A stretch of DNA of 64,000 nucleotides from Diadema setosum (lineage: Eukaryota > Echinodermata > Echinoidea > Diadematoida > Diadematidae), in contig NC_092689.1 in the NCBI RefSeq assembly GCF_964275005.1, forward strand, positions 12,187,479 to 12,251,478, read 5' to 3'. The notes under the pieces were generated by a model that made no database searches, had not been told where the DNA came from, and saw nothing but the letters and a program-made list of their open reading frames with translations. Of this stretch, positions 12,242-42,707 are shown in pieces; the first letter of the stretch is position 1, and each line of letters starts with the position of its first letter. The position numbers were made by a program, and so were the translations under genes.

Positions 12242-12414
12242 TCATGTCAATAGAGGGCAGTCTATCATAAAGTCATCTTGGCTTGACTGCAACGTCGTGT
12301 TGTATTTCCGTCGCAATCGCTTGCACAACTGGGAGATGCTCTCTCGCGATGTCTTCCAGATGACCTCAAACTCGATCTGACTACAGCGGGCGCCATACTT
12401 CCGGTACAGGAGTT
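12242..12414 (-). CDS. BEN-gene exon 5: end of the BEN domain and C-terminus (residues 1035-1091)
   Basis: The acceptor follows a pyrimidine tract (CCCTTTTCCCCC, then ATAG) in phase 1, completing a Gln codon. The peptide continues LLYRKYGARCSQIEFEVIW and then SISQLCKRLRRKYN. This is the helix, aromatic residue, basic-helix pattern that closes BEN domains; BANP has LFYKFGITESDWYRIKQSI at the same place. A 15-residue tail leads to a TGA stop. The basic terminal helix would be the likely DNA-contact surface in this family. Confidence 0.85.
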
Positions 12415-13612
12415 CTATGGACGGGGGAAAAGGGATCAAAATGTGAATACAATGGGGCAAAACAAGAGCAACTCCATCCAAAAAAAAAAGAGATAAAGCT
12501 AAACCACTCTGATTCAATCTATCTGAGTTTTTCCTTTCGACAAGTTCGGGAGGAAATGAAATGAAAACGGATAAACTTGTCTTGTTTCGAATCAGAAGGT
12601 CGTCTTCTCCTTTGTTCCTGTTAAAGAGTTCACCACTTCGGGCAAACACTCACTGCTTCCACGAACGGTGGTTTTTGGCTAAAATGGAAAAACCACATCA
12701 AGCGGCAGCACAAGAAGATTCAAATAAAAATATATATATATATTTCTTCTTTTTTTCTTTTCTCTATTTTTTTAAAGGTACATTAATCAATCTACGTCCG
12801 CAATATGAGTAAACAACGCTCAAGCAGACAGGATGTTAAACTTTTTTTTATCGTTCTTACGGATCAAGACGATTACATTTCGACAGATAAACATCACAGT
12901 CCTTCGAGCACGACTTCGTACCCACCACATAAATTCTTATGGTTTGTAAGAAATAGCAGCACACATTGTAAAGTTACTTCATAATACCAAGTACATGCGA
13001 CTGATATCTACTTATAGTCAAGATTATATTGCATTGCTATCAAGTGGTTTCAAAGAGGGAAAGAAGCAAATTTACCCCATTCCCCTCGGGAAAACAAACG
13101 AAAAGCTCACTGCCCTAAGAATATTGCTCCTACTCAATCTAGGAGAAAACTAACTGATTTATTGGACAAGTGAAAAAAAAAAACATATCGGAAAAAAAGT
13201 ATTTAATTTGTTCCTCATATGTTTAAGTTCTTTCAACCAATTCAATATACAGATTTACTATTACGTTTTTGCAGTTGCATTGGGTTTGGACTGTGACTCT
13301 ACAGAATCTACTCGTTCAGCTGGAGAACACTCAGTCAATAAATATGGGATTAATATGCACCGCGGATCTAAGTTGATATCAGAAATAACTCAAATTGCAT
13401 CACCATGATATGGATGTTGATTTCTGAAGACTTGTATTCATATCACACGCGTACGATGCAGCTGCATGGCATATAGGTCCTCAAGCGAAGTCTAACACCC
13501 TAAGTTTACGTATCACAGAGCGTAGCAATCGGTTATGGTCCTGCATTCTACATTCTGATTGATCAGTTGTAACTGCCGGGGTTTCTCATTTTTCGTTACC
13601 ACCTGACAGACT

Positions 13613-13682
13613 TTTACAGACAGTATCAGAAAGAGCAGCAACGACAACAACAATAACAGCAACAACAACGACAACAACAAAC
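13613..13682. repeat. (CAA)n-like microsatellite in intron 4
   Basis: AACGACAACAACAATAACAGC and further AAC units within the 1.4-kb intron between exons 4 and 5. Nothing else is recognised in that intron. Confidence 0.85.
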
Positions 13683-13810
13683 TTTGTAACTACAAGCTCT
13701 CCGCAAACACAAATTCCTTATATTCTTTAAGTATCAAGCTGCTCACAAAGGCATGAATGCAGCAAAGAAATGGGTTCCAATTACTTCTGAATTCTACGGA
13801 GGCTACTAAC

Positions 13811-13996
13811 GTTTGATTTTCCTCATCCCGGAAAAGTCCAGTGGGTTCTTTCTATTCCGGCCCGTGACTGAAGACTGGACGAGCACTTTGGTGCCGAAGA
13901 TGCAGTAGCGGGCAAGAGCGATCGCGAGACGGGGAGCTCCGGCGTACGGCATCATCTCGTCCCATCGCGTATCCTGCATCACCATCTCTATGCGAG
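13811..13996 (-). CDS. BEN-gene exon 4: first part of the BEN domain (residues 973-1035)
   Basis: The acceptor has a good pyrimidine tract (TTTCTTCCTCAG) and the donor is AAAC then GTTAGT, both phase 1. The peptide runs from RIEMVMQDTRW through PRLAIALARYCIFGTKVL to SSVTGRNRKNPLDFSGMRKI. The helix with alternating small and hydrophobic residues, the SSVTG turn, the basic loop and the LD motif match the first half of BEN domains. BANP has an equivalent stretch ending in KKQLDPLTIYGIR. The domain is completed in exon 5. Confidence 0.86.
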
Positions 13997-14500
13997 CTGA
14001 GGAAGAAACACAAGACATCGCCTTTGCAGACTCAGGTTTCCAGTGATCTCCGCTCAAAGTCATGAAATGTTAAATCTGTCGGGGTACATTCCCTTTGTAT
14101 TGAAAACTGTGACAATGCTTGATTCCGATCATCGCTCTCTCGTCTGAATTCTTATCTCTTTCATGGCATAATACAGTTGATATCAAGCTTCTGTATTTGT
14201 TATACTCTCTAGGAGACACGGGAAAATACTGATTAAATTGCTACATGAACCTTTACAAATTTGAATTGCCTGTCAATAATGAGTCACTTACATAACATTT
14301 ATCTCCTTTCAATATATGTAGACGCTCACCTCAGGTAAGTGATTGCGTCAGAATATCGGGAATAAGGTGTTTAAAAATGACCGATTCTATTCAGCACAAG
14401 ACATTACATTGGTACGATACAGACAGCAAGTCACAATCTGATAAACTTATGGGACAGTAAGAATAAAAGAAAATTTGGAAGTTGTATCTTAAAGATTTAC

Positions 14501-15173
14501 CCTCTGTCTGACTGTTGCTCGACAGATCTCCGTAGTCCGACAGGTCGTCGTCGAATCTCCCCTTGTCGTCGACCACCATACAGTCGTCCTCTTCAACATG
14601 GCTCGAAGTACTTTTGCCTCCGCCGCTGCGGTACCCGCTACTTCTCGAGTCATCCATCATGGAAGAAACGGACAGCATACGAGCGCCTCTTCCTCCTCCT
14701 CCTGCTCTTCTTCCCCCTTCATCGTCGGCATCCTTCATCCTCGAAGTTTCACCTCCACCTCTCCCACATTTCTCCCTTCCCCCCTCTCTGCCATTACAGC
14801 CCCCTCTGTCGTCACCTCCGCCACCCGACTCCGACCCCGCCCGCTCTCCGGATCCACCTCTTCCGGCCTTGTCCGAGTCCTCTTTACCATCACCTTTCTC
14901 CCCTCCCTCCCCTTCCCCTCCTCCTCCTCCTCTGCCTCCTCCATCTCCGCCTCCCCGATTCCCCGAGGTTCCCCCATCCCCCCTACCGTCGCTGCTGCCG
15001 CTGGGACCCGCAACGCTGTCCTCCTGGAGCCCCGAGTCCACCTCGCTCCCACCCCCTCCTCCAGGATCCGAGGAGACGCTCTGCATCTCGGCCCCGCCCA
15101 TGTAGGGCAGGTGGTCCAGGATGACTTGCAGTTGACCTTCGATGACCTCTAGCCGCTGAGAGATTTCCCCCAT
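14501..15173 (-). CDS. BEN-gene exon 3: coiled coil and Gly-rich stretch (residues 749-973)
   Basis: The acceptor is TACATCCAG before ATG, phase 0. The donor is GAGG then GTAAAT, phase 1. The exon begins MGEISQRLEVIEGQLQVILD, a short amphipathic helix with leucine/isoleucine spacing of a coiled coil. BANP has a comparable RLDSIEAKLQALE helix upstream of its BEN domain. A long glycine-rich low-complexity region built of GGA/GGG-type codons follows (runs such as GGGDGGGRGGGGGEGEGGE), then an acidic Ser-rich tail (FDDDLSDYGDLSSNSQTE). The codon run leaves several long antisense frames open, which are shadows. Residue 973 is split across the next intron. Confidence 0.83.
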
Positions 15174-15632
15174 CTGGATGTAGACAAGACAAACACAAGC
15201 GATTTCGTAATAAACGATAAGGCACAGACACCGACTGTAATTCAAGTGAGCTCTGGACAATTTCCAACATGGCAATCAGCTTTGGTGTTGGCAACAATGA
15301 AATGCGAATATATGAAATCAGATCTATTCCCATCCAGGTAATTTCGGTCATTTGTGCGGTTTCTTGTTATTGTTGTATTTTGCAATATGATCCTGTCTGA
15401 GCACAGATTCGAAAATAGGTCAGGATGATTACTTGGACAATGATGGTATTATTCACAAAACATGCGGTGTATGCAAACATAAATAATCTTTTACATGTCT
15501 TCTAAACGCAAGATAGTGCAAATGCATAAAGAAAAGATATTATTGGAGCAGAAAAAAGGAAATGGACCTTCTTTGTCGTAGGGTAACTTTGGGCTTTTTC
15601 ACAACGTGAAGCTTTGTTTTGGGAAGTCTCAC

Positions 15633-16886
15633 CCATTTTCTGACTTCAGAGTTGCCAGCTCCCTGCTCCTGCTGCCTCGGGGCCCGATTTGAGGCGAAGA
15701 TCCTCTCTGCAAATTCGCCGTACGTTTCCGGTGGATCGATCTCCAGTTCGGGCGACACTTCGTCCGAGCTGAAGTGAGGCGTAGCAACCTGGGCCGCGTC
15801 GTGCGCGACGGCGAAGTGTCTATTCCGCAAATGTCGATTGGGGTGGTTGCCGTAAAATCGTCGGCCACCGCTGCCTACCCCTCCTCCGTAGGCGTGGTGG
15901 TGGATCCCGCGCATGGCCTTACCCATGGCGTGGTGCATGCGCATCATCTTCTGGAGCTTATGATGAGGAATCCCCTGCGGTGCACCAGAACCGCCAGCCG
16001 TCATCCTCTGCACATGGCGCGGCACCCCTCCTGCAACCGGCTGTCGCATGCCGATGAGGTTCCTCTGGTATTTGCTCATAAAAGGTTGTTTAACCCCACC
16101 CCTTCCTGCTGAAAGCGGCAGTCGACGCTGTCCGACGTGGAAGGCCTGTCCGATGTCGTGGGTGAACGCGTGAGATGCAGCTAAACGGCTGGCCATCGTC
16201 GCCGCATTGCACATCTGCGATCGGTGGAGGGTCAGCGGGAAACCGTGCTGACGCATGCCCAGAGGGCCGCCGCCGAATGGTCCTGGCGACATTTGAGGTG
16301 TACCGAGGTGCTTGCCGTAAATGTCTATTCCGCCGCTGCCACCTGAACTGCCGCTCTGCGACGTCATCGTGCTGCTGCTCCGGCCCGATTTCGCCGCGGC
16401 ATCGCCTACGGCGTGCTGGCCACGCGAGGAATGGGAGCCGTGGGAGCCAGCACTGTGAATCGACCCAGCTGACGATCTCCCCAGAGACCCCGGTCGCTTG
16501 GGATGCCCCATGACTTCCGACTCAGAATCCATGTCATCATCTGAGCCGAGCATGACCTGGTCACGTGGGTTAGATAATCGACGCTGAGAGATAGCCCTTG
16601 CTTCCATGATGGCAGCCTCTTCGTCCTCGTTATCTCGTGACCGCTCGATCCACGGTAGCACCACGTTGGAAATTCTTTCACTCCCTCCACATTCGCCTCT
16701 TCTGCCACTGCGACTTCGACGGGAGTCATTAATGTCATCATCATCGTCCTCGTTTTCCGGCGTTTGCTGGCTGGATTCGTGATCGTCACTTGCCTCGTCG
16801 ATCTTTATCTCGTAATCTTCATCGACCACTTCTTTTTTCACACTGGCGACGCTGACTTTGGCTGGTGACTCACTTCTGGGCAAATC
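15633..16886 (-). CDS. BEN-gene exon 2: acidic, Ser- and His-rich linker (residues 331-748)
   Basis: The acceptor is a polypyrimidine-like CGTTTCCAG before GAT, phase 0. The donor is TGG then GTGAGA, a good consensus, also phase 0. The start of the exon is acidic, with VKKE at about residues 346-349, which fits the SUMO-attachment consensus. An Asp/Glu run (EDDDDD), a basic RRSRSGRRG patch and a Ser/Gly-rich region follow. A Met/His/Gly-rich part (around KLQKMMRMHHAMGKAM and RGIHHHAYGGG) and a further acidic segment complete the exon. No folded domain is recognised and the whole exon is probably disordered. The frame stays open past the donor to 15540, so a transcript retaining the intron start would add about 30 residues before a stop. 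Confidence 0.82.
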
Positions 16887-17020
16887 CTGGAAACGAAGAC
16901 CCAGAAAAACAGTGCTGATTTAGTCATATAGTCATATTGTATCATCGATTGTCACATTGTATCATCGAATGTCAATTTAATAGTGCCTAAAAAAAAAAAT
17001 CATTACCATCATCACTATTA

Positions 17021-17060
17021 GTACCATCGTTATTATTGTTATTGTTATTGTTATTGTTAT
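17021..17060. repeat. (ATTGTT)n microsatellite
   Basis: ATTATTGTTATTGTTATTG units, followed by CAGCAGCAG. Confidence 0.9.
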
Positions 17061-17564
17061 CAGCAGCAGCATCATTATGAAAGAATCGGCTACATTGCAA
17101 TAACATGAAATAAGACTGTTACATATTTCGGGACAGTTACAATACCTTTTACGATACTTCCTTTTCCGCCCATAAATCATGAAAGACATTGACCAGTACG
17201 TTTCAGCGGAACATCTTCAAGCTTCGAGATTCAAACCTCTGTTGTACCTGAACATGTAGGTTCGCCAACTTTAACGAAGCAGCAGCCAAACATAATCAGA
17301 TATCTTGATATAGATTTATTGTACCATTCTACATTACGTTCAAGCAGGTTGCAGAAAGTGGTTTTAAATAGTTTTGTTATCATAGATAGTTAAGCGAAAT
17401 TAAGACAGCTATGGAATTTCACAGTTTCCCATGTCTTTACCAAACAGGTGATATTATTCGCAACCACATATTCATATTGGCAGTATTGATAACAATGATA
17501 ATTTGTGGTCTTCTTTATATAAGGTATCCTCTTCAGTGTTGGCACTGTTCTACCAGAGAACCCT

Positions 17565-17729
17565 AACATTAACATTACCCTAGGGTTGCAAGGTACCCAT
17601 TTTTACTCCTGGGTCGAGAGGGACGTGGCGGGTAAAAACACTATGTCCAAGGACGTAAACACTGGACTGGATCCAAACTCGGGTCCTCCGTGTGGGAGTT
17701 AGGAGTCTTATCCACTATGCCACAGAAGT
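17565..17729 (-). mobile_element. tRNA-derived SINE
   Basis: On the minus strand A box TGGCATAGTGG (17722-17712) and B box GAGTTTGGATCC (17680-17669) have tRNA spacing. A body with CTCGACCCAGGAGTAAAAATG and a terminal TAATGTTAATGTTAGGG repeat follows. About 165 bp. Confidence 0.78.
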
Positions 17730-18149
17730 GATGATCGAGGTGATGATAAAATCACCTCACAAGTCTCCCAGTACACAAATATTTACTAAATTTCTTCTGT
17801 TACATCATTGTACCTCTTCAATATATCTGACAACTGCTTGCAGCAGAAACAAATAAATACTTTGTAATGATTGTGCAGTACACAACATAAAAGACATGTC
17901 ATACACACACCGAACACGTTAGATCGCAGCAGGTTCTCTCTACAGCTGGGATACGTACACAGTACATCTGACTGCCTTTGTTGTTAATGCTACCCATGTG
18001 GCATAAGGATTTCCACCAATCACAATTACTGCAATTGTTGTTCCTCATTGCTTAGTTGTGAGACTGTTTCACAATCAGTGAACTCGTTCAGGATTAAACG
18101 GCATTACATTGCCGTCTGCAGCTGACATTATGCTTCACCATTGTGAAAT

Positions 18150-19080
18150 CGTGCCCTGGATGAAATAACTAGGCCCCTGGGAAACAGAGTTAGATGCCTT
18201 GGACAATGAGAAGTAGGAGCCTTAGAAAACAGAACAAGAGTCTTGGAAAGAAGATCTTGATGCCTTGGAAAAAAACCAAAGCCTCGAGGAAAAAAAGAAG
18301 AAGAAAAGAACAAGAGCCTTATAGGAGAAAAGAGTTGGTTCCCTTGCAGTAGAGAGCTAAATGTATTTGAACGGATAATTACAGCCGTCTATAGAGAGAA
18401 TCATAACTTTAGATAAGGAGAGCTACAGACGCTGTGGAATGGAGAATTTAAACATTGAAACACAGAAATACATGATTAAAGACAAAAAATTGAGCCGTGG
18501 AAAAGAAACTATACAGCCATGGCAAATAGATCTATATGCCTGCCTATAAAAGGAAAACTGGAGCTGCGAAAAAGAGACCATAACTTTGATACAGAGGCGA
18601 GATGCCTTGGACGAGGGAAAATAAGGCATGAGCTCAGTGCCTATGAAATAAGAAACTGTGAGCTGTGGATAAGATTATGAGAACCTTTGTACAGAGAGCT
18701 AGATGCGGACCTTCGGAAAGCGAGCTAGACTCCTGGAGAAAAGAGCCAGATTTCTTACCAGATTACTACATAATGTGGAAAAGACAATCAGAACATTTAG
18801 AAGAAAGTTAGATATCTTTGGAAGGAGCATGGACCCTACCACAGGGTCCATGGAAGGAAGGGTAGAGCAACTGTGGAAAAGAGAACTAGAGACTTGGAAA
18901 AGAGAGCTGCATACCTTTGAAGAAAAAATCCCAGCTGTGGAAAGAAGACACAAAGCCTTCAGAAAAAAAAGAGCTTAGATGCTCTTCGAGAGACAGTTAG
19001 ATGCCCTGGGAAACTGCATTAAAGAGAACTATAGAGCCCTGAAAAGAAGAGCTACATGCCTTGGATAAGAAAGCGATGAT
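18150..19080. repeat. Decayed about 30-bp minisatellite
   Basis: Variants of GAGCTAGATGCCTTGGAAAAG recur through some 900 bp (GTTAGATGCCTTGGACAATG, GAGATGCCTTGGACGAGG, GAGAACTAGAGACTTGG, GCTACATGCCTTGGATAAG). Because the unit is close to a multiple of three, an open frame at 18703-18978 reads like a charged coiled coil. No splice context or conserved frame supports a gene. Confidence 0.8.
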
Positions 19081-19084
19081 ACCG

Positions 19085-21278
19085 TCTTTAATGTTCAGTG
19101 TGTCTTTCACGTGCATGCAGTTAGCATATCGCGCGCAGAACAAGGAAGATGAAACCGCTCTCGTCAACATGGACGAAACTGAAAACTTGCGTTGTGAATG
19201 CGATTTGAACAAAAACAGAAACAAGAGATTCCCATGATAAACCTTGCAATACATAAATATGTGCGTGTGTTTGTGTGTGATGTGTATGTGTGTCTTTCTC
19301 TGGTACCTGAAATCTATTACCGGACAGAACGTGAAGTATACATAAAATCAAAAGCGAGAGTTAATTTATAACGGTTATTACAACTTTTTCTTTATACTAG
19401 AAGAATTTTATTTTCGGTCATCATCACCCGATAACAAGATAAATGGTTTCGGTTTCGCACCAAGAGTATGTTTGCAAAAAAACATGTGTAAGATGATAGA
19501 GCGGGGTTTCGCAATTGGACTGCCTTTGCTGTCTTTCTCAGCTTTAAAGGAGTTGTGTGATACTCTGAGAGATTGAAATCTGAAGAAAAAAAAAGTTGGT
19601 CCACATTACAGATGACCGACGTTGATTCCCGTGCGAAGTACAAGAATCTGCAACGCATCTTTGCTACCGTGTCATACATCAGTGTCTTGTTGTTGTTGTT
19701 GTAAATACATAAAAGAGTGTGAGATAGTTTGTCGCTTTCCAACTAGTACAATATTATCAGATACTACTATCTTGCACTCACTTTACAAGATGTGTGGGGG
19801 TTTTTTCTGTGAGACTTATTGCGACTAATCATTACTCCTGTCAGACAACGGAGTGCCAAAAGTTGTCGAGTCCTAGGGAAAAAACAAACAAACACTGAAA
19901 ACCAGTGTCTCTAGTCCTCCGTAACTCTGATGCGTCACATCGGGCAAGTCACGGGGATGATACGAAATAACAACCAATAACCTAATCCTCTCAGGATCGA
20001 TGTATGAAAATACCCTTGACATGTCGTCCATTGTAGCCAACAGTGATAGTGGCAGGCTTAAACGACGCTAAAAAAAAATAGCTTAAAAAAAGGAACAAAA
20101 GAGACAATAAGGAAACTTAAAAAAGGAACAGAAATCAGACAAATGTTGAAGTAAGCGCATGCATGGTCCTTCCCCACGCAGAGTTCTTCGACAGACAGTT
20201 CTAGCAAACGTGTGGTTGTCGGTGTCTGTCAATGTGCACCATCTTCTTTTCTTTCGGTGTCTGTATCGAATACAGAGACCGCATCGAAATAAATGCCTCG
20301 CAAATAGGCAAAAGTGAGAAAGCAGAGTTTTGAATCGAGGGCCCATGTTGCGTCCTCCCACCAAGCATTCAAACCACAAGACCTCGACACCACTTCCTCA
20401 TTATATCTTCTGGAGTGCCCTGTGCGCACTCTCTCGGGCTATGAGAGGGAAAACGCGCGCGCGAGAGAGACAGACCGACAGACAGACCGACTGACAGGGA
20501 CAGAAAGACAAGAGAAAGAAATAGACAAAGAGATAGAAGGAGAGAAGAGGGGCGAAATGCGGCTTTAAATACTGGAAATACCTTCAAAACCAAAGATGGC
20601 TACGTTCGAAACCATAAACTGGCAATGTGATAAGAAATAATAGCAAGTGAGATATGAGATAGCAGTCGTCTCGATGTCATCGAGCCACTTCAAGCTTCTG
20701 CCAGAAACAAGGTCAGGAGGTCTGAACAACTGCGAGCATCTGAATAAAGGCTCCGAAGACACGCAGAAGATGGCTGGATGGCAAGCAGAAACGTTGTAGG
20801 TGTTCCTCTTTTAGTGTGCAGCTTTCAGGAGAGGGACAGAATGCTGTCCCTGATTTCTTGAGGTCAGTTCTCATTTGGAGATGCTCACAGGCATCACAAA
20901 AACTTTCATAGTTTCGGATGCAGCACACATAACAATGTTACAGCCGCCGTGCACGGCCGTATACGAGAAGGGAGTGTTCAAGAGCGAATATAGAAAGGTG
21001 TTAGTATCAGTGCATGCTGTACGCAACATCCGAGGATGCCTGTGTTCTCCCATTTCAAGCTTCCAACTTCCAATCTCCGATTTCATTTTTTCTTTTATTC
21101 AAACTAGCATTCAGCCATCTTTAGCTAAAGGTGAATATCTTGAAGGATAGTAGTCTCTGTCTTTCTGAGAACACATCATTATGGAGAAAAGGGAACGACG
21201 ACAATTATCTCAAAGGATGGAGGGGCACGGATGTGAAATTGCTTGCAATATTGCTGCCACTCTCAAGAACTTCCAGCA
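19085..21278. other. Intron 1 DNA without recognised gene
   Basis: A GAGA/GACA-rich patch at 20455-20555 is the only marked structure. Open frames here show no domain. Confidence 0.5.
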
Positions 21279-21355
21279 GCAACAACATCATAACCCCCAC
21301 CACCACCACCAACAACAACAATAACAACACAACAACAACAACAATACCGAGGTAT
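21279..21355. repeat. (CAA)n/(CCA)n microsatellite
   Basis: CAGCAGCAACAACATC, CACCACCACCAACAACAAC and following AACAAC units. Confidence 0.85.
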
Positions 21356-22075
21356 CTCTAGCAGCTCAAGTCCCCGATTAAGGACATAATCATAATTAAC
21401 TCTCTTCTGTCTTTGGAGTTTAAAAGTAACTCAAACAGCGTATGATTAATGCTCTCGCTGAAATTCATATGAAACAAATTGAAATAGCTCTAGGACTTGG
21501 GAATCTTCACCCAGCAGGACAAGAATCATAATTATCGAGAAAAGGGACAAGAGAGTTCATTGTATTTAAGTGAACAACCGTAAATTAACCACTTATGCGA
21601 TGGTGAACAGTGCAGCCTCTCCTGCGATGTTTCTGATTGTAAACGGAAAGTAATCTCAAGCTAAGAACCACTGTGACGCGAGAATCGAAACCAGCGACGC
21701 CTGGAATAATGTGCATGCTTACAAAAATATACCGCACATGAGAGCGCACTGAGCATAAATCATGTTTTTGCTTCCTCGTTTGTTCATTTTCCCCTGCTGT
21801 CAAAAAAGAAAATAATAATTGCGAAATCGGAATGTTGCAACTGGCAGTTGCACCTTACACCATATCAGTACACCAAGCTTTCTTTGCGCGGTCCCGAGAG
21901 AATCCTGAAAAAAAAAAAACAAAAAAAAAAAACCGGTTGGTTGAAAGAAGAGAAACAAAGACAAAAAAGATCCGGGATGAATGTATATTCGACTGTCATC
22001 ATTTGGTGGCTAGCGAAGCTTTTTTCTATTTTTTTTTATTTCCTCCATAATCCATGAGCTCTATTGTTTATTGAT

Positions 22076-22109
22076 TTTGTGTGTGAGTGTGTGTATGTGT
22101 GTGTGTGAT

Positions 22110-22140
<31 letters not shown>
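22076..22140. repeat. (GT)n microsatellite
   Basis: Interrupted, then pure GT repeats. Confidence 0.93.
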
Positions 22141-22299
22141 CAAGAAAAACAGTGTTTTCCTTCCTGTCCCTGCAGAGAAGTAACAAGTTCATTTATCGTT
22201 TATGGGATAATCAAATGCCATTCTGACTGACTGACTGTCTGTTTGTCTGTCCGTTTTCCTCCTTCGACAAGTCAAAAACAAAAAACAAAACAAAAAATT

Positions 22300-22600
22300 T
22301 CTCACTGACTGCAAAGGAGGCGGGGAACGAGAGCGATGCTCCGAGGGGATTCTCCGCACAGGAATAGAGATTTTAGCTTGGAGGAAGAGACTGTCAAAGT
22401 GAGCTGGTGTGGGATATTGCTCCTGACACTTGGCAGCGCTTTGCATCTTAATCTTTTACGGGGACGCAGGCCGAGATATAGAAGGGGACTCGGCCGGCAA
22501 GTGTGTGTCATCGGCAATGAGACGAAAAGGCGCACGTCTCACTTTCAAATTGAGGCCGCGTTTTCCTCGGGGTATCGGCAGGCCAATTAGTGACTAAACT
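22300..22600. promoter_or_regulatory. GC-richer island in intron 1, candidate enhancer
   Basis: About 300 bp of complex, GC-richer DNA with homeodomain-type CCAATTAGTGACTAAACTAAT at the right side and no repeat character. Chance open frames on both strands show no domain. Candidate only. Confidence 0.3.
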
Positions 22601-23220
22601 AATAGTTTCTTTTAGCTCCTCAATGTTGGCGTTCGCATTGTAGTAAAGGAAAAAAAAAGACACACAAAAAAGATGGATAGCGTAGTATGAGTAGGATTTC
22701 CCCCCTACTGTTGTCAATTCAAATAAATCTGTAAAAATCAAACCATACATTCTGACACCATTATTATTACTTCATCGAAAATGAAACATGGAGCTCGTCT
22801 TCCATAGGTCATTCTCACACCCACGACAATGTGTGAAATGGGAATGTATAATTAAGACAGTTCTTGGCCAGTCTGTCGGGAGGTTATCGGGAAGTTCAGC
22901 TCCAGCATGTTGCTGTCTGAATTTCATCTCCATTATTTTGTTCTTTCATCGCAAATGGAAGGATTTTATTTTTCTTTTGCATCATATGAGTTTGATTTTA
23001 CACATCGCGCTATGCTTTTCTTTCTCCTTCTTCGCCATTCATCGAAGTGACTGTGGTACAAGCGGATTTTTATTTGTTTGTCTGTTTGCTTGCTTGTTTG
23101 TTTTGGGTTGTTGTTGTCTTTGGGGGGTTGTTGTTGTTTTTTAAGCTCGAGAGAGACGCTCGTGGGTCATCATGTCTACACTAAGGTCGACAGTGTGTGC
23201 GTTGTTGAAGAAGATGATCT

Positions 23221-23370
23221 TAGCGAGCTTTTAGATCTGCGCCGCGAACACTGAGACGACGCAGCCTCCCGTGTCGGACAATGGGAACAGCTGTCTCGCG
23301 CATGTGCAGAACACCATTTTTGGCCTACCGATAATTAGCGTCGTCTTAGCGTTCGCGTCGCAGATGCACG
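23221..23370. mobile_element. Short MITE, TAGCGAGCTT family, copy 1
   Basis: TAGCGAGCTTTTAGATCTGCG at the left and GTTCGCGTCGCAGATG at the right are inverted. Middle sequence (GACGACGCAGCCTCCCG) matches the copy at 49134-49268 in inverted form. The right terminus is lost at the SINE boundary. Confidence 0.75.
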
Positions 23371-23382
23371 CGCGGCCCCTCT

Positions 23383-23745
23383 TGGGCGTTGGCTCGGTCG
23401 GTATCACGTCTGCCTCCAGATCCAAAGGACTTGGGTTCGATTCCCGAATCTAACTGAGCAATGTTGTGTGTAACCATACCGCCCCTCTATACAGTAAGAA
23501 GCAAAGCACCCTGTCCCACGGCCAGGACATGCAATGGAGGTCCCGTGCACCTAAAACTAGTAAAAGATCTTGCTTCATCCATTCATTGCAAATAGCAGGG
23601 TGCATAACCCGGTAAAGTGGTCCTGGTGAAGTGGTTTCGCCTTATATCCGACTGGACTCGATGGAATACCAGCTAGAGCGCAGCTGAACGTGGGCTATCC
23701 AGCCAATGAAATTGAAGTTGGATTAAATCAAACACAAAAACACAG
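23383..23745 (+). mobile_element. tRNA-derived SINE
   Basis: A-box-like TGGCTCGGTCGG at 23390-23401 and B box GGGTTCGATTCCC at 23433-23445 have tRNA spacing. The acceptor stem is not restored, and a non-tRNA body of about 290 bp follows. Hence a SINE and not a tRNA gene. It begins where the MITE at 23221-23370 loses its right end. Confidence 0.75.
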
Positions 23746-24199
23746 GTGTTTTAAAATATTTCCTGGCGATATCGATCGATGGTAGGAAAAAAGGATTAAC
23801 CATAATACACCATGGCAGAAGGGCTACGACGGTATCAATTATGTCATGTACGAGCTGGAAGGAGTGTTTCTATGACCAGTATGTTTCGCAAACTCTTGGA
23901 GGGGGGGGGGGGGCGGGCGGGGCACTTTATTCGCAAGTCACGAAACGTCTCGTCTATGGTATGCTCAAGCTCAAAGTAAGTCCATTCCATGCCTATGAGT
24001 TAGCTTTTAAGGGTGAGAACAAACGTACCACTATAGTTAAATCACGACTGAACATAACATACAAAAGTAAGAATACCAAAGTCACTCATGTTGTTGTTTT
24101 AGTCGTAATCTTATGAGAACACTAGTTGAGTTTTTTTTTTCCATATTTGATTACGTCCATTTCTTTATATTTCCCTCACTATAAAATAATCAAATCTAA

Positions 24200-26290: not shown

Positions 26291-26304
26291 TCTTGTACAT
26301 CTGT

Positions 26305-30831: not shown

Positions 30832-31334
30832 AGTTCATTCATTCATTCATTCATTCATTCATTCATTCATTCATTCATTCATTTATCCATACCCAACAGA
30901 AACATCATACATATTTTACAAAAAATTGAATACATAAATTACATCTGCCAATACATGATAAAAGATACGTTTACAGACTATTTTCAGTATACGGAAATGC
31001 TGGAAATGGAGAGATATGCTAAAAAGCACTGCTTGTAGGGCGCATCCCCCCCCCCCAACACGTAATACAACAAATTACATAATTGATATACTGTTATGCA
31101 TAAAAAGCGGAAATACAAAAGAAACTAGACGTGGAAACCTAACTAACTCGAAACAAAGACCCTAGACAAATCCCTATACTCAAAGAGAAAAAGTTCCTCA
31201 AAGAGAAATGGTAACCTTGAATGAAATTGGCGAAATGAAAGCGAAAAATATGGCAAGGTTTAAGCAAAATCGGAAGGATACAAAGAAAGCGAAAATCCGA
31301 AGGGACATACATTTTGTCATGAAATAACATGGCA
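30832..31334 (-). mobile_element. 5'-truncated LINE 3' end with (ATTC)n tail
   Basis: A (CATT)n run (30834-30882) followed by TTATCCATACCCAACAGAAAC and AT-rich UTR-like DNA, in the order seen for minus-strand LINE ends here. The inner boundary is uncertain. Confidence 0.45.
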
Positions 31335-32856
31335 AAATCGACACATACATTGCTGATGTAATTACTAATACTCCATGACGTTAAAGCAGACTGAAGTAGC
31401 TTACTTTTACCATTTTTTACTTATCTGAGGCAAAACCGATTTTCCGCAATCATGCACCATGAATTTCTCCGAAGGCGTCATATCAGTGGAATCATTTTCA
31501 TCACTAGCTAATTTATCTTAACAGACGCCCTCTTAGTCAGCTATCGTGTGCATTATTATCCCTGAATTGAAAATTCTTGTTGAGCCGCCAATCACAGGCT
31601 GCGTATTCGAATTGCTTTTTGCATCGATGAAGAAGGTCTAGAATATTGCTACGTTGAGGGGAAAAATCAAAACAAAAATTAAATAAAAAAGAATGCGTGA
31701 AAGCTCTTTAAACGTCTTAAAGATCTTTCTTTTTTGATGACCGAGTTGTGAATATCCACACACTCCCAACGCGCCATCGCTTGAACCTTAAACACTAACA
31801 ACTTTACATCCGAAGCAGGGTTTTCAAGGGTTGTTAAATATTTTGTTGTTAATTACAATGTTTAACATTCCTGAAGAGGAGATAGAAATTGTCGGAAACT
31901 TTATATCTTATTTCCAAATCCATATATAGGTACGGAATAGACGAAGGGCATCGATTCTGAGCGATAATTCACGTTATCATCATTCTCAGCCTTTGCAGAA
32001 ATACATTGCTGTATACATGTTTCTGTTTTCAAGATCTTATTTTATCCAACGTCATTTTTATCCCCAAACCCCCAAACCTGCCGATAGACGTATGAAGATA
32101 ATCTTTTTTTTTTTCCTCAGGTAAGTAACGATAATCATGTTACGAGATATACAGATTAGGTCATCATTAGATTTGACATATACGATTATCATAGAAAGAT
32201 GCATGGCTATCATACTTCAAGTACATGACATTGTACTGGTATGGTAGCATTGAAAGGCAATACATTTCCTGTACCTTTTACCCAATAATACGCGATGCGA
32301 TGAGTTTGATTATCAGCGCATGCGCATTTCACTGTTTAGCGGCTGGCCGCAGAAAGTGGCGGAAAGCAGAATGTAGGAGCCAATGTTTTTGCCCTCCCCC
32401 CCCCCCCACCCATGTCATAACTGGATGCCAGTCAGTGTCATATTGCGTCATATTGTCTCACTTGATTCGAAAAAGTAAGTTGAGTGAGAATATACTGAAG
32501 TGATTATGAATATCATGATCTGTTTGTACACTGAAGTTGACTTCTTTATGATATGAACGAAGTCAGAATATATTTATATGTGCCCCTCATTCCTGTTTCC
32601 TATTCAGTCACTTCACAAAACGAAGGCCTAATCATGCAAATCTTTTGGCACGTCAGTTTAAAGAGTCAAGCAAAACGTCAAGCAAACGTCAAGCAAAAGC
32701 AAAAGTCATCTAAAGCAGTCATTCCTTCCATAGTAAATACCCAACAGGTACTGAATCTTAAACTTGCGGTGAGAACGCTACCTTAATGAACCTATACCTT
32801 GGTGCCTTGATGAAAACGAGAATGGCAACACACGTTGGTAAACACTTGCCCATAAG
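31335..32856. other. Intron 1 DNA without recognised feature
   Basis: Only a C run at 32396-32407 and a short CAAGCAAAACGT-type tandem near 32665-32700 stand out. Confidence 0.5.
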
Positions 32857-33102
32857 CAGTGGCGGATCTACGGGAAGGGGGGCTGCCAAGTGATGTGGTG
32901 TGCATGAAAAACGTCATGTGTGCAGACTCTATTATTACAGAATGCTTGTAGCGCTCTTGTTCTCAGGCTCAAAAACAGTTTTTTTTTCTTATCAGCCGAT
33001 CTGGGAAGAGAAATATGTGAAGATTTTTTATATTCTTTTGCTTGTCATGACCCATCGTCATTGCCCCCCCCCCCCTTAGTAAAAAGCTAGATCCACACCT
33101 GA
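32857..33102. mobile_element. hAT-like MITE, CAGTGGCGGATC ends
   Basis: The left end CAGTGGCGGATCTAC and right end GTAG-like GCTAGATCCACACCTG are imperfect inverted repeats. This end sequence is common in hAT-type MITEs of animals, where a G run follows, as here (GGGAAGGGGGG and the 13-base C run at 33064-33076). A target duplication is not clear. Confidence 0.65.
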
Positions 33103-33164
33103 TATGTAAGTACCTTGTTTAGTATAAAGATGCCTTAGCAACTTGACGAGTTTAACAAGTCCCA

Positions 33165-33400
33165 TTCTTGTCTTCTTGTCTTCAACAAGGCCACTAGGTG
33201 AATTTCAACAAGTCTTCTTGTCTTCTCGTCCCGAACAAGGTGCCTACGTGAGCTTTAACTAGGTAGTCGTTTTTTTATAACTTTCTCGTCCCGAACAAGG
33301 TACCTACGTGAGTTTTAATAAGGTAGTCGTTTCTATAACTTTCTCGTCCCGAACAAGGTACCTACGCAAGTTTTAACTAGTAGTCGTTTTCCCGAACAAA
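33165..33400. repeat. About 60-bp tandem repeat, three to four decayed units
   Basis: CTCGTCCCGAACAAGG recurs at 33225, 33285 and 33343, each followed by CCTAC and a GTAGTCGTTT motif. More degenerate units lie to the left (CTTCTTGTCTTC). Confidence 0.85.
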
Positions 33401-33409
33401 GCGCTGGTA

Positions 33410-36400
33410 ATGGGTGAGTTTCAATAAGCGGCCATCTCGCGTGCACGTTTGCGCTTCCGTTCATAATCACCTAAAGCTCCTTGTTCCTTTCCAGATTTTT
33501 GTCTTCTCTGACTTTCTGTGGTTTGGAGAGGAAGGCGAGGGAGGGATCGAGATACCAGTCAGGTCATCTGCTCAACAGATGGAGCGTAAATCTGTTTTGT
33601 TTAGCGATGATGCCCTTTGGATCATCTCATTTCTGCTCGAGACATTGGGATTTCGAGTTGTTAATTTGCTGCACATGATGTGTGTTGACGTGGAAGATCA
33701 AGTCGAGATACTCGTATGGAGTTCTCGGTGTTAGCAGGACCAAGATGCGTGGTATATAAATGGGAGGGATTGACGTCCACGACGCCTGGTCGACGGAAAT
33801 GGACAGGAAATCGGTAGTACACAGCAGGGGAAGTAGAATGAAAGGATGCAAAGGGATGTCGGCACATCACCGCTGCAACATTCGCATATACCGAGGAGAC
33901 CAAACCGCTGGACGTATATTACTAGTAACAGGACATAGCAACAGCATCCGAGCTTTTTATAATAAATTTTGTAATCGTAACGGCAGAACGTTGTTTTGGA
34001 TTTGCATTGGTAGTACGCGTGGTAATAGAAGATAATAATGCTTTTTAACGTCGAGTATATAGGGTGTTAAGTTATGATAGTTATATTGTTTACTTATTCA
34101 TTGATCACGTTTTAATCTTCCATGGCTTTTTCTTTTTTAGAGCGGTTTTGGTTTGTGTTGGGATGGGGGGGGGGGGGGGCTTTGTCTGTAGTACACTAAA
34201 GAACATTGTTTAGATTGGAAAGTAGTACCAGTACGTTCACTGACGTACGCGGACCAGACTAAAACTGTCGTAGAAGTATCAAAAGAATAATCTCCTTTGA
34301 CGTTGTCGATTTTATTATACCTTATGATTACAATCTGTTCTCAAATGATGGCTGTGTTGCTCTTTTGATGGCGATAGAGTTCTTTAAATACGCAGTACTT
34401 ACGCAAAGAAAGAAAGAAAGAAAGAAAAAAGGTCATCATACGACGGAATCTGCCCATGGCCTTCAAGCCAACCACTATTCACGTACCGCAGACTGGCTCT
34501 CGTGTAGAGAACCGACTGCACGCAGTTAGAAGCGATACTAGTCGATTTCCTTGACTCGGGATCAATTCGTAACAAGCGGATTAACCGGGCAGAAATCGAA
34601 ACTATTTTCAAAGGATATGATTGGTTTATGTAGTTTGAAAATGGCACCCCAATTCCTGTCCGATACTCGACTCTGATAATGTTTCTCTTTGTCCGCGTGA
34701 TCGGTACAGAATTGAAATGATCCGTTTGAAAAGTCAGGGAGACCATAAACTCGGCTTAGATCTCAAGACAGTAACATTTTGTCACCAGAAGGAGAGAGCG
34801 AAAAAAAGAGATAAAAAGATGTATCAACGCGCACGCGTCTGTACTGAATCCCGCATATCCGTTTGTAAAGTTAGCAAATAAATGTCTACTGTAATTAGCT
34901 ACAACACAGATGGATGGAGATAGCAACGTGCGATACATTAATCGCACTGAAAACACATTCGCCTATTGTCAAATCCGAAACCAGAGAAGTTAGAGCGATG
35001 CCAAAATGCTCTGAAGGCGGGTGACAACGCTAATATTCGTGGACAAACACTGCGACATAAATTTGCTCTATTTGGTGGTTCACTTTCATCAAATCATTTT
35101 TTTTTAAACTGATAAACAGTTTTTTACTTATCGTTAATGACATCAACTCGCTTGATTCACGATCTTTTCTCGTACAGAAATCGTCGGGTGGGGGGGGGGG
35201 GGGGTGGTAGTGCTCAAGGGGAGAAACTGAATATGCCATCACCTACTTGAGGACATTATGTATGAATAATTCGACTATTTTATCTGAAATATCAAGCATG
35301 TACCATTTTTCCCAATTTGCGATCGAGGAACAACAACTCAATTTCTATCTGCCTAAGAGAAGGAAATTCCACCCGAACTTTGAAACATTCCAATATTTTG
35401 ACGCCAGTTGCCAATACTTATGAATTTTCGTGGAAAATCTACATTTGAACCCTGTATAAGCACGATATAACTTTGCTCTTTGGCGCTGTCTGCCGATTTT
35501 ACTTGATCAAACCAGTCAAATGTAAAACTCATGTGAAATATTTCTCTGTAGTCATCGGCATTGGATGAAACAGAAATGCTTCTCCATTATATAAATGCAT
35601 AACCACATAATCCTTTTTTTTTTTCCGACAAGGTCTATACCCAATAAAAAATATATTTAAGCATTGTTCATAAAATTGTGTGCTGGATATGTGAACGGAA
35701 GACACCACTCCCCTATCCAAACCTCAATCTAAAATCTTTTCCAAATAGCACATGCACATACTTTGGTTTTATGAGATAACTTGTTTTCGAAGTGATCAAA
35801 CTGATTTTAACATAACTGTCGCTTTGAGAAATGACCCCTGTCAAGTCCTGATGTGATGTGTTTAAATCCTAGTCCATGCAAAGTAATATTGTTGAAGTAG
35901 ATTATGTTGCTATATACGTAAGAGCACTGTTCTAAATACTTTATAGCTGGCTCAGCTGACACACTTACTATAATACACTAATTTCAGGTATATGTCTATA
36001 AATCACTAATGTTTTTAGCTTCATTGTCCTGCGCTTCGGTTCCCATGCTTTGACATTCAAATAAGTTTCGACTTGACGAATCTTAAAAATCGGTGATGAC
36101 AACAGGCCCCACAGCATGCATGGGTGCTGATAAGGATTTATCCACAATTACCACGTTGTGAAAACTCGATTAATGTACTTCTCCTCGGCACATTTGCACT
36201 GATAATGAGAATCCAAAATATAAGAGAGACTGAAGACCGTGTTATATGGGGCAGACTTCAAGCTGACTGTAACCGGAAATCAGATTGCGATAGTCACGGT
36301 GTGTTTATGTTCTGTCCTCTTGAAAAAAAATAAATGAATAAATCATCACGTCTTCTTTCTATAGATACCTCATACACCTGGTAAGACCAGTGAGCGCCAG

Positions 36401-39249
36401 AACATAAACAGGTTGTTTTAGTCTCTTCACGCAAAGGGGGAAGTGGTCAAGAATAATAATGTACCTGACTCGGATGTGTTTTGTAAACAGCGGCGATCTT
36501 ACTTATTATTAGGGTTGTCAAGTTTAGCGCGACACTTGTGTATGTCAGATGGAGTAGCAAGGCGTGGAGCTCGTATCCGTCTCTTTGTTTTTGTTTTTGT
36601 TTTTTTTTTATACGCAATATCATTAACGGACGTACACATGCTTTGACATTTCGTGATTGAAGCTGCATAAATAAACCATCAAATTTGTTTAATTAAAATC
36701 ATCGCAATGAATGTGGACTAACTTCTCCTCATGATGTTACGTAAAAGTCGCATCATAACTTTTTTCCCTGCGGCAGCTGTATAGTGACTCTACAGTTTCT
36801 TCTTCGTCTTTTTCCTCCTCCTACTCAAGACTCAAGGCTACTTTCTCCTATCTTTTTTTTCTTCCATTATGATTTCGACAGTTTGCATTATCAAAGGTTT
36901 TTAGACTCACTGCTCATAATTACGTGCAACTTCTCACGACATAAAGGGACATCTGAATATTTGAATAGTAGCTAGAAAAAAAAAAGACTTGTAAATTCCG
37001 TTTCAAAGGGCGATTATGACTGAAAGCACGCGGGAGCATCACGGACCTGTAATAAGTTTCGCATGCGGCCGACGGGCGTCACGCAGTAAATCTCATCGCA
37101 CAAAGGAAGACTCGGGCTGTCACAGGAAGAGACAGAAAACATGATATTACCTCCAGAGTTTTAGCAGCGATGTACGGCCGGCTCAGTGTGCGCTTTTGCT
37201 GTTTTTTCTGGTTTTCTTTTTCGGAAAAGGCAACAAAAAGAAAAGAGGAACCATGGCAGAAAATTAAAAAGAACTAAAAAAAAAAATCAAAAGGGAAGGA
37301 TGGCAGGAAATTAAACGATGATAGGAATGGGAGGGGGGAGGGGCTTCATAGTAATTACTACGCTAGAACAGGGAGGTGGGAAAAGATTATTGATACACGG
37401 GAAGATTCGCAGATATGGACAATGCAGTTTCTTACCTCTTGTTTCCTAGTAATTTAAGACATTTTGTAGAAATTGGAAAATTCTTGGACAAGCGTATAAT
37501 ACTGGAGAAGAAGAAAATAAAAATAATGACAGATGTTTTAAGTAAATGTCGATTTTTTTTTACTCTCTCGACTCTGTCAGAGTAGGTATATAGTTATACG
37601 GCCTACCTGCGTCCGACACATGGGAGAACGTGGATGTCCACTGTTACGCGATTCACTAAAATTTTAGAGCGATTACACTCAGTATCTTTCAGTTGAATTC
37701 ATAAGACACAGAGAGTGAAATCGGACAAAAATATAGGAAGCCGTTTGATTAGAAATTGGAAAGAAAGTGAGAAAGTAGTGGATTTTCCACGAAACAGTGA
37801 TCTACACACACGTTCAAATCGGACAAGGTGCTGATTTTATCGCTACACAACTCTTCTATTTGGTTTGTTCATGAAGATGATCATCATGAAACAATTTCCT
37901 CTTTTTCCCCCTTCAATACTCGGCAAATTTCCCCCTACCCTTCTCTGAATACATCGACGATTTTTGCATCAACAAACTTCAGGAAGTTTGAGGTATAAAG
38001 GACAAAATTTCTTCTTATAACATTTATCTGTTAATAAAAAATGAAATTTGGTGAGGTTTGAAGTGCAAGCAAACGAGGGGCTTGTGAGGACACAACCATC
38101 ATCAGGTCAATGAGTTTGATACATATACTAGTACGTGACGTTGGTGGTTATGAACTGATCTCTACAGGAAAACACTTGAAACTATAAAACCTAAATACAG
38201 CTTTCTTAATTCCGTCGAACTTTAATGAAACGTGTTCTGCTATATTTCGTTTAGCTTCACTCTATTCACTACATAATGAACTTGGAGTCTGAGCTGTTTT
38301 CCCTCACGTCAAGTGTCTAAAGAAGATCACTCATTTTCCCTACATGGGCGTTTGTATTATCATTATATCATAATATATAATAACATCGTACACAGGGTTT
38401 GTATATCGAGTTCTGTAACTAACTAAATGCGAATAGGTGTATAGAGAAGACGACCTCTCCCTCTCTCTATCTCTCTCTCTCTCTCCCCTTGCGGAAACCG
38501 TTAGCGTCTCAGTATTTTTTCTCGCACGATTACCATGACGACGTGAAATTCTCGTTCAGTCCCAAATCTTATGACATTCGGTAAAGGGATTGCTAGGTAA
38601 AACTGGAAGGGGGGGGGGGGAGGTTTGACAAGCAAACCTGCTTTATTAATGTGATCATTTCACAGCATGCATTGAAATGACAAAGTCATGCCACTTTGAA
38701 AAAAAAAGCACACACAGAAAGAAAACTCGAGTTTAAACAGAATGTAATAATACACAATGTGATTATCCATGCATGTACACCATACAACTTACCCGCTTTT
38801 GATGTACGCCTTACTATTTCTGACGCTTTCAAATTAAGCTTAATGACATTTACGACTTCGAATTTCGTTTCCTCATATATTACTATAGAGGATACGTGAA
38901 ATTGGATTAAGTTTGATGGACGGCCAGTTACCATTGAAGTCAGTCCGTTCAGATCAAGTAAAGGAGCATCAACGATTTACAATCAGTGACGGTTATAGTG
39001 GTCTATTACTTCCGCATCTACTTTGTTTCAATATGAACATAAAAATCGTTCCATATAATGATAGTAGCTGTGGCTTGAATAACTCTCCACACGATCCAGT
39101 TATACTTGGGATATTTTTATAAACTAAAATATCTGAAATCACTGTTATCATTGCCAATGCTTCCATATTGATATCATTATTATCATTATCATCAATATCA
39201 TCATTATGCATACTATAGACAATAAATTGTCATTACTGCGTCACTCAAA

Positions 39250-39286
<37 letters not shown>

Positions 39287-40479
39287 TTGAATAACTATTA
39301 TTTTCCATCTTAGTTGACGATGTACCTAAACAGTTTCATACAACTTTTTTTTTTTTTTTTTTTTTGGGGGGGGGGGGGGAGGGTGGATGAGCATGGATAT
39401 TAGTTGACCGTTCCACCCCGTCCTCCCGATTTGTGGAGTATGCCTCTTTCATGGAACAAACGCTATTAATTTTTAGAAATAAAGTAGAAATGTGAACAAT
39501 GTCTTTTTTTTTTTGAATAATATACTTTTTTTTTTTAAATGTGGCATTACAGAAACTAAATTTATATGGGGACATACAATGATATTGAGTACCTTGCTCC
39601 TCCCCTGTGTTGAGAATTAAGTTTAGATATTTTATATGCAAGTATTGCGGGGAAAATCGGGTCAGCTTAGGCAAACTGGTTTCTCCAGTTCTCTCGGCAA
39701 ATAGATCTGTTTGCCGAAACCAACCGATTCGGATCGATCGAATGAGGATACTGAGAGTAAATAAATGACCAACACTTGAAAGTCCACTCCCATGAGAAGT
39801 GATTGAGAAGCCAAATTAGATTTAGCACAGCTCATTTTCAACATGAAATACTGAGAATAGTGCCCTACAATCCACCACAGCTATATGTCGACAGAAGTGG
39901 GTGTGTTGACTGGGAACCTTGCAACATTTGGACTTTAGGGTATTCCCCGAGACATATTTACAGCGTCTAGATTACTGCACATCTCTCCGACTGCCGCATG
40001 GTGCTTGGAATTATTTGACACGCACTCAAGATGATAATATAATCATCTACCGCCCTGCGTGCATTTTATAAGTCAACGTCACTCATCACTGACATATCCT
40101 AAACTCTGTGAAAGGTGCGGTAATGCCTTCCTGTCAATGTCAAACTTTCAAACGTTTATTTTCCTATTGCACATGGATGGCATGACCAGACTGCATGTTT
40201 TTCATTTTCATTGAAGCCGAGGCCTCCTAGCCTGTATGGGGAAATGCTCTTCAATTTAATATTTTCATTTCCATGTTTACAGATCCGTAGCTTTCATAAG
40301 GAAACTCATACATTACTTCATATAGGCCTGCTCACTTTATTATCATACGATGGGCTGCTACATGAGCTATATATGGAGTCTTCAATAGTCATTATTGAAA
40401 ATAATGATGAATTAATTTTCGTTCCAGACACCCCTTCCCTAACCACCCCCACCCACCATTAGCTTTTAATGGGCGTTTC
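33410..40479. other. Intron 1, long stretch without a gene
   Basis: No exon, SINE or clear transposon end recognised. It contains poly(G) runs at 34165-34179, 35190-35204, 38609-38620 and 39366-39379 (the last directly after a T run), a (GAAA)n patch near 34405, a (TC)n patch near 38456-38486, a (GA)n run at 39255-39283 and a GC-richer patch at 37010-37200 that could be regulatory. Confidence 0.5.
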
Positions 40480-40680
40480 CTCGTAATGATAATGATGATG
40501 ATGATAATTATGATGATAGAAATAATATATGATACAATGTACGGCCTACTAGCAACAGTAATAATTACAATATTAATGATAAAATGATGATGATGATGAT
40601 GATAATAATAATTATTATTATTATTATTATTACCATTATTATTACCATAATAATAACAACAACAATAATAGATAAACCTA
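40480..40680. repeat. (ATG)n, (AAT)n and (AAC)n trinucleotide array
   Basis: Runs of GATGATGATGATG, ATAATAATTATTATTATT and ATAACAACAACAATAATA in an interrupted block. Confidence 0.9.
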
Positions 40681-40701
40681 ATTATTGACGGTTCACCTTA
40701 A

Positions 40702-41087
40702 AGGGGCTGTACAGTACTGGTTCAGGTGGGGATTCATGTTTTTTACATTTCTTAGTGATATAATGAGAAACCTCGTATGAAATATGAAAGAGCATGTAAT
40801 TTTAAGAAGAATTCAACGTTTATATGATGAAAATTGGTTTTCAAATGGCTGAGATATCCAAAAAAGTGATTTGATAATAAAAGACTACAATGCCCCCAAC
40901 TTTATTAGGATCTCTTTGTTTCACCTTGTTTTTTGATATCTCAGCCACTTCAAACCGATCTTCATCAAATAAACTTTTGATACCCCTTAGAATTGCATGC
41001 TCTTTGACATCTCATAGAGTAGTTTCTGAATATCTCGCAAAATGTTAAAAGCTAAATCCTCACCTCGACCAGAACTGTACACACCCT
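40702..41087. mobile_element. MITE with TTAA target duplication, family A, copy 1
   Basis: Flanked by TTAA at 40698-40701 and 41088-41091. The ends AGGGGCTGTACAG and CTGTACACACCCT are imperfect inverted repeats, and the arms continue inward (GGCTGAGATATC versus GATATCTCAGCC). Related to 47616-48076. Confidence 0.8.
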
Positions 41088-41091
41088 TTAA

Positions 41092-41717
41092 ATTTATAAC
41101 CATATCGATCCAGTGAATAAACATTAATTTGATTCAGTGAAATTCCAACTTATTTGGACTCTTTCGATTCTCTCAAACTTCACTGAAGCATTTTATTCAA
41201 TTATGATCCTTTTCCATCTTTTACATATCATGAACATCACAAGACAACCATGAAATGTTTATTCTGTTGAAGAGAATGGTACTGACCTATGACAATATCA
41301 AGCAGAACGATGATAATATCACTGTTGTTAATATTATCATTATTATTCATCAGTGCATGTTATTTATAAAAATAATGAAAACGACAAAAGTTATTGAAGT
41401 GCTAAACATGTAAGTGGTGATGAAAGAATAAATTTTCACCTGGAAAAAAAAAAATCATATTCTCGCCAGTAATTTTTGATTAATGGGTTTACCTTTTACC
41501 GCAATGTTCTAACATTTCAGGAGGTTATCAAAAAGATGACTTGATTTTGCTCAGTGATATAATGACTAGAAATACTGATAGCATCGTTATGTCATGGTCA
41601 AATTATATTTGTCATTATACCAATCCAAGATTTACACTGTATACTGCTCACAATAAGGAAATGCTTGAAAGCTGGCTGACAATTACATCAAAGTGAGGTC
41701 ATGAATTCTCAACTTAC
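41092..41717. other. Intron 1 DNA beside exon 1
   Basis: AT-rich; includes an A run near 41444. No feature recognised before the donor at 41717. Confidence 0.5.
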
Positions 41718-42707
41718 GTTCGAATCGGCTTTTTCGGATGACGAAGGCCGTGGCTCGTCGACGTCCGGCTCACGGTCATCATCTCGCATCTCGCTGTCGA
41801 GTGGTGCCGAAGTGTAGCTCGTGATCCCTCCTTGTCCTAAGACCAGGTTCAGCGAGGCGGCTGACACGGCCTTCTTGGGTGGTAGGACCAGGCCCTGGCT
41901 TGGAAGACTCGACTCCGAGTCCATGCGACTTGTCCCTGTCGCCCTGCCGACGACGCGCTCTCGCACGGCCGTCTCAGCCCTGCTCGCCGATGCCGGGATA
42001 GCGGTCGACGCGGCAATGCTTGGCTTGTCGACCTGATCGCCACGCGCTTGCGACCCTTCAGCTTCCATTTCGCGTATCGTCAGTGAGCGCTGGCGTCTCT
42101 TCGTTGCGCCACTGCCCATGCGTGGGGCAAAGTGGGGATCGTTCCGCAAATTCACGGGCAAATCTATTCTATTGGCGTAGTTCATCTTTTTCACGACAAT
42201 ACTTCTTCCGATTTTCTCCAGGGCTCGGAATGTGGTAGTTTTCGATATTTTCACCCCCTTGGTGAGAAGGGCAGCTTGGAGGGCTGCAAGAGAGTAAATA
42301 TTTCGATCACTATCGAGTATTTCTTCGATTAGTTCAAGAACATCTGGCGTTAGTTTGGTACGGCGGTTGAGCGGAACGGCTTGGTTGTAATCTCTTCCCT
42401 TGCGCCTCTTTACGTTGAGCCGAGTTACAGACAGGGAATCCGCTACCGTACTGGAATCGCCTGCGGGGAATCCTAAAACGCCCTCCCCATCGTTCCGGCT
42501 GTTCTGCTCACAGCGTTCCGTTGGCGTTCCAGCCGCTTCTTCGTCCGACTGCCCGCATTGCATGAGAGCCTGCACTGTATTCAAGTCAACAACGAAACCC
42601 TCGTCTTTCAGCCGACTCCAGATTATTTTCGGTCTGTCTCCCAATTCCGACCAATGGTACAAAATTCGGTCGCGTATCTCGTCCGAAAATTCTGCGTCTG
42701 CCATCAT
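41718..42707 (-). CDS. BEN-gene exon 1: N-terminal HTH-like modules (residues 1-330)
   Basis: The exon opens with two consecutive ATGs, giving MMADAEF, and ends before a strong donor (AAC then GTAAGTT), phase 0. Residues 5-50 form a compact helical module with core IIWSRLKDEG and a second helix DLNTVQALM. After the basic stretch KRRKG (100-104), a possible nuclear signal, residues 114-176 form a second module: LTPDVLELIEEI, then a middle helix SLAALQAALLTKG, then KISKTTTFRALEKIG. Two such units in a row resemble the bipartite paired-like DNA-binding region of Tc1/IS630-type transposases and PAX proteins. No catalytic transposase domain follows. The rest (200-330) is charged and Ser/Ala-rich, probably disordered. 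The fold assignment is from pattern only. A long open frame on the opposite strand is a shadow. Confidence 0.85.

Follow-up and report, generated by a model that had tools for sequence, protein, structure and literature searches.

Several described protein families come close to the parts of the gene reported here. BANP (SMAR1) has a coiled coil ahead of a single BEN domain with hallmark residues; according to the available part of PMC11472053, the full-length protein is mainly a tetramer in solution, oligomerises via its coil and gains site selectivity by oligomerising. The paired domain of Pax proteins and the DNA-binding region of mariner transposases (Mos1, SETMAR) each place two helix-turn-helix (HTH) modules in series. 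In the Caenorhabditis F-box A2 proteins, a captured mariner HTH occupies a single exon at the N-terminus and is fused to a host protein (PMC12062965, available part). The gene described below, from the sea urchin Diadema setosum, is probably a coiled-coil/BEN variant with an N-terminal double HTH, a combination that appears to be new.

The DNA analysed was a window of 64,000 nucleotides on contig C5 of the 912.7-Mb genome, and positions refer to this window unless stated otherwise. Five minus-strand exons from 42707 to 12242, with GT-AG boundaries at all introns, join into one in-frame protein of 1,091 aa:

Exon 1, 41718..42707, minus strand: residues 1-330, with the start codon, predicted HTH module 1, predicted HTH module 2 and a low-confidence tail.
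Exon 1 donor, directly 3' of exon 1, minus strand: exon ending AAC, intron beginning GTAAGT; phase 0, rank 14 of 1,762 GT sites.
Exon 2, 15633..16886, minus strand: residues 331-748, a linker of low complexity in which G, S, R and A abound.
Exon 3, 14501..15173, minus strand: residues 749-973, with the greater part of the heptad run 745-773, followed by an acidic stretch rich in glycine.
Exon 4, 13811..13996, minus strand: residues 973-1035, the first half of the BEN domain.
Exon 5, 12242..12414, minus strand: residues 1035-1091, the remaining half of the BEN domain, including the helix expected to contact DNA, 20 further residues and the stop.

Exon entry phases are 0, 0, 0, 1 and 1, and the stop codon occupies 12244-12242. 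The first-pass annotation had proposed five exons with agreeing splice phases, which the GT-AG introns and the 1,091-aa frame bear out. Exons 1 and 2 sit in stop-to-stop frames of 343 and 459 aa; frames of at least 330 aa occurred in 0 of 40 simulated windows. Ranked by a simple consensus score against all minus-strand GT or AG sites in the stretch 12000-43000, seven of the eight splice sites fell within the top 3%. The exon 4 donor is weaker (rank 254 of 1,762), yet it lies at the conserved BEN intron position. Exon 2 has no Pfam match and contains one copy of a SUMO-type motif, VKKE, at residue 346. Scans for Rfam families and tRNA genes gave no matches. The feature is real coding sequence, with the join of exons 1 and 2 predicted.

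Elsewhere in the window, the minus strand carries a LINE-like element at 51481-54615, with endonuclease (3.6e-9) and reverse transcriptase (3.9e-31) matches in three overlapping frames, and a 390-aa open frame at 58254-59426 that has no Pfam match above cut-off and resembles LINE ORF1 by eye. A single-exon rhodopsin-type receptor (7tm_1, 47.8 bits) lies on the plus strand at 61297-62301.

The BEN domain occupies residues about 974-1071. BEN (PF10523) was the only Pfam family matched there, with 12.9 bits against a cut-off of 23.2 (E 0.13, profile positions 10-74 of 76); the BANP-like exon of the same genome, L022, is itself under this cut-off (20.5). A first-half profile was built from the genome's own BEN exons, using 12 of 21 genome matches and omitting L012, L018, L019, L023, L024, L025, L026, L027 and L028. 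Exon 4 scored 20.2 bits against it, and the best of 20,000 shuffles reached 9.1. Exon 5 scored 10.1 bits against a six-sequence second-half profile; two of 20,000 shuffles, 18,395 of which yielded any score, reached 10.1, the best at 15.2. A two-sequence profile from BANP and BEND3 was dropped because shuffles equalled the window score. Hallmark BEN residues (L, F, K, LD, I, W, SI, C, R) occur in order and align with the BANP and BEND3 PDB sequences.

The strongest single result is the intron within the BEN domain, which supports membership in the family without defining it. The genome search for BEN domains gave 21 matches at E up to 10, ten of them above cut-off; the window exons, searched singly, were absent from this set. 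Every one of the 13 BEN exons whose LD motif can be read has a phase-1 GT precisely ten residues from this motif, and the window gene shows the same spacing. Among the remaining matches, L012, L013, L016 and L026 are intronless at this place and four weak matches fall outside the comparison. Since L017-L019 are near-identical neighbours, only about 11 of the 13 cases are independent, and L023, also among the 13, has an internal stop. The BEN motif and the intra-domain intron are thus features that the window gene has in common with the other BEN genes of the genome (L008-L023). The acceptor before the BEN exon is in phase 1 here versus phase 0 in L009, L010 and L021 (L014 and L020 lie slightly further off), a comparison limited to paralogues with a listed acceptor near the BEN exon start. 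With the exon 4 score, the shared intron and the hallmark residues, the earlier assignment of a BEN domain to the C-terminus holds, and this part, judged by its sequence, is a genuine BEN gene. In a separate observation, the near-identical BEN exons L017, L018 and L019 lie together in about 2.6 kb (G000:C16:17995738-17998357), marking a BEN gene or exon that was duplicated locally.

Identity with BANP was rejected: the BANP-like exon L022 is distinct and lies on C9, so the window gene is a separate BEN gene. The two proteins share the order of coiled coil and single BEN domain with its hallmark residues, and oligomerisation is likewise expected here. They differ at both ends, as BANP has a C-terminal DNA-binding domain after BEN, whereas the window protein ends 20 residues past BEN without such a domain and has, unlike BANP, the N-terminal HTH pair. 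BANP DNA contacts, taken from the available part of PMC11472053, were placed by alignment with numbering inferred from residue identities. On this placement, Lys278 and Ser310 are identical (K1022, S1060), Lys250 and Ser271 are conservatively replaced (R995, T1017), Tyr305 becomes lysine (K1055) and Lys314 is lost (L1064). In place of the base-reading Arg316 and Ser313 stand K1066 and Q1063. With phosphate-contact positions partly kept and both base-reading residues changed, the BEN end would read a motif other than that of BANP. The upstream stretches of 12 BEN loci, which represent 14 of the 21 matches, were read over no more than 10 kb each (30 kb for BANP). None of their 1,407 frames resembled exon 1, exon 2 or the coil at E up to 1, and at this range an intron as long as that of the window gene would hide such an exon.

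Between the two ends, nine successive heptad positions are hydrophobic at residues 745-773, a run found in 2 of 4,000 shuffled proteins, and this supports the coil that had been suggested between the HTH and BEN regions. Of the nine, V745 alone belongs to exon 2, and the run therefore lends the exon 2/3 join just slight support. Leucine predominates at a and isoleucine at d. In model peptides, Leu at a combined with Ile at d favours four strands. A coil-like stretch was also seen by eye upstream of the BEN domain in L013 (L062).

Two tri-helical HTH modules are predicted in exon 1, at residues 9-53 and 121-166, and both appeared in two AlphaFold2 runs made without alignment, for which the mean pLDDT of the whole models was only 55.5 and 49.0. 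In the structure search, seven of the 50 matches listed span both modules, all of them Mos1, SETMAR or Pax entries. The paired-domain trait of two such modules in series is therefore present in the predicted structure of exon 1, with Pax5 and Pax6 among the entries that span both, although exon 1 has a long linker between modules. In sequence, no Pfam PAX match was obtained at E up to 10, and residues 1-180 compared with Pax5 gave P 0.10. Six alignments of module 1, module 2 and Pax5 with one another gave no consistent signal; in one, module 1 matched the RED half of Pax5 with P 0.007 over ten residues.

Residues 115-178 give weak Pfam matches to several HTH families, every score under its cut-off, and module 1 has no Pfam profile match at all and is known from the structure predictions only. 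The first-pass annotation had staked its tandem HTH modules on some HTH score within residues 1-180; module 2 has sub-threshold scores of this kind, module 1 is scoreless, and both modules stand as structure predictions. PDB sequence searches with window pieces returned no BEN or eukaryotic HTH relative, and the HTH piece matched two Fur chains at E 1.1-1.3. Within the genome itself there was no close copy of the HTH modules or the BEN domain, and three extra matches at E 1.6-9 were taken as noise. Prokaryote genomes yielded a single relative, L064, with 29% identity over residues 114-178, which we read as a Fur-type protein; viral contigs yielded eight pattern matches, none of them a relative.

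The first-pass annotation had raised the idea that the N-terminus may be a captured transposase DNA-binding region. In fold, the likeness to Mos1, SETMAR and Pax leaves room for this proposal; sequence comparisons lend it no support. Against a profile of the genome's own Tc1 copies, residues 1-200 scored 2.2 bits, a value matched by 165 of 5,000 shuffles, and pairwise comparison with those copies gave no signal (four P values, 0.32-0.69). The Tc3_2 score was 13.9 bits against a Pfam cut-off of 31.5, and module 2 scored at least as well against the Fur, ArgR and IS3 models. No catalytic DDE domain family was among the Pfam matches of the exon frames, and no traceable transposase ancestor of exon 1 was found in the own genome, viral contigs or prokaryote genomes. 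Compared with the mariner DNA-binding region, the HTH pair superimposes with an rmsd of about 16 A, and the protein has neither a match to the catalytic domain nor shown sequence kinship. The Caenorhabditis F-box A2 case differs in that the HTH partner is an F-box rather than BEN, and in that a transposase origin is argued there with structural controls (PMC12062965, available part).

The modules might instead be ordinary eukaryotic or ancient HTHs whose likeness to Mos1 reflects a shared arrangement without transposase ancestry. We regard this account of their origin as evenly balanced between true and false. Besides the missing kinship to own-genome Tc1 copies, it draws on the equally good fit of module 2 to ArgR, sigma-54 and Fur folds and on the Fur-like nature of the sole prokaryotic match; it is opposed by the structure matches that span both modules, all seven being mariner-type or Pax. 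A transposase origin of exon 1 thus has no sequence support, and the fold likeness keeps the idea alive. A fragment at 50503-50865 on the minus strand of the window resembles a Tc1-type transposase N-terminus by eye (HTH_32, under cut-off), and L030, L036 and L037 are nearly identical Tc1-type elements with open 364-aa frames on three contigs, their near-identity suggesting recent spread.

Whether both ends belong to one protein depends on the join of exons 1 and 2 over a 24.8-kb intron, which is the weakest link of the model. Both intron ends are in phase 0, with the donor at rank 14 of 1,762 and the acceptor at rank 47 of 1,797, and the first in-frame ATG of the exon 2 frame occurs at residue 424. 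Because of these phases, the splice-site quality and the lack of an ATG in the exon 2 frame before that residue, we consider it probable that exons 1 and 2 lie in one predicted gene, which would be expressed as a single transcript across intron 1. Exon 1 could alternatively come from a neighbouring gene for an HTH protein with other exons unrecognised, in which case exons 2-5 would encode a coiled-coil/BEN protein of the usual kind whose own first exon lies somewhere in the interval. The length of that interval, the 22 AATAAA sites on the gene strand within it and its 140 frames of at least 45 aa are in keeping with two genes; the strong phase-0 sites at both ends and the exon 2 frame without an early ATG speak against them, and we hold this explanation to be unlikely.

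Assuming the single gene, its product may tentatively be viewed, with somewhat less than even confidence, as an oligomeric chromatin or transcription factor of the nucleus that binds DNA through a unit at either end. The coiled coil would join copies, as in BANP, and the last helix of the BEN domain would lie in the DNA major groove in the BANP manner. Exon 1 would supply a second DNA-binding unit, two serial HTH modules on a flexible linker, laid out as in the paired domain and mariner transposases. Such an oligomer could tie together two unlike DNA sites or recognise a single long composite one, and its role might be that of a repressor, an insulator or a bridging factor. The binding of DNA by both ends, the oligomer size and the nuclear role are all deduced, and the HTH folds are predicted.

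Charge bears on this proposal in two directions. Residues 1-60 are acidic (net charge -7), and the captured HTH of the Caenorhabditis F-box proteins has been proposed to bind proteins (PMC12062965, available part), so that in a single gene the HTH pair might bind proteins and only the BEN end read DNA. Residues 101-190, in contrast, carry a net charge of +8 and adjoin a basic cluster (such clusters lie at residues 99-106 and 203-208), and we think a protein-binding HTH pair rather improbable. The favoured reading remains DNA binding at both ends. In its boldest form, the gene would found a BEN class whose DNA-binding ends differ in kind (BEN at one, a paired/mariner-type double HTH at the other), in which a coil-driven tetramer bridges two different sites and the N-terminus, derived from a transposase, serves as a transposon-type reading head; we give this little credence.

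The first-pass annotation knew of no described family with this arrangement, and none was found in the literature covered. Among the matches listed for the BEN domain with transposase, paired domain, helix-turn-helix, sea urchin and transposon domestication, no such arrangement was described, and the term 'BEN domain' is absent from the listed papers on domestication; the founding BEN-domain paper and a tetrapod paper on host-transposase fusions lie outside this coverage, so absence from print is not established. In the available main text of PMC10027918, on transposon-derived transcription factors, the word 'BEN' does not occur, and in the available part of PMC12062965 it occurs once, as a person's name.

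A single BEN protein that also carries an unrelated DNA-binding unit could connect two sites, and would be a natural case for testing how factors of this family bridge or insulate chromatin. Were the transposase origin true, BEN genes would join the host genes with captured transposase parts.
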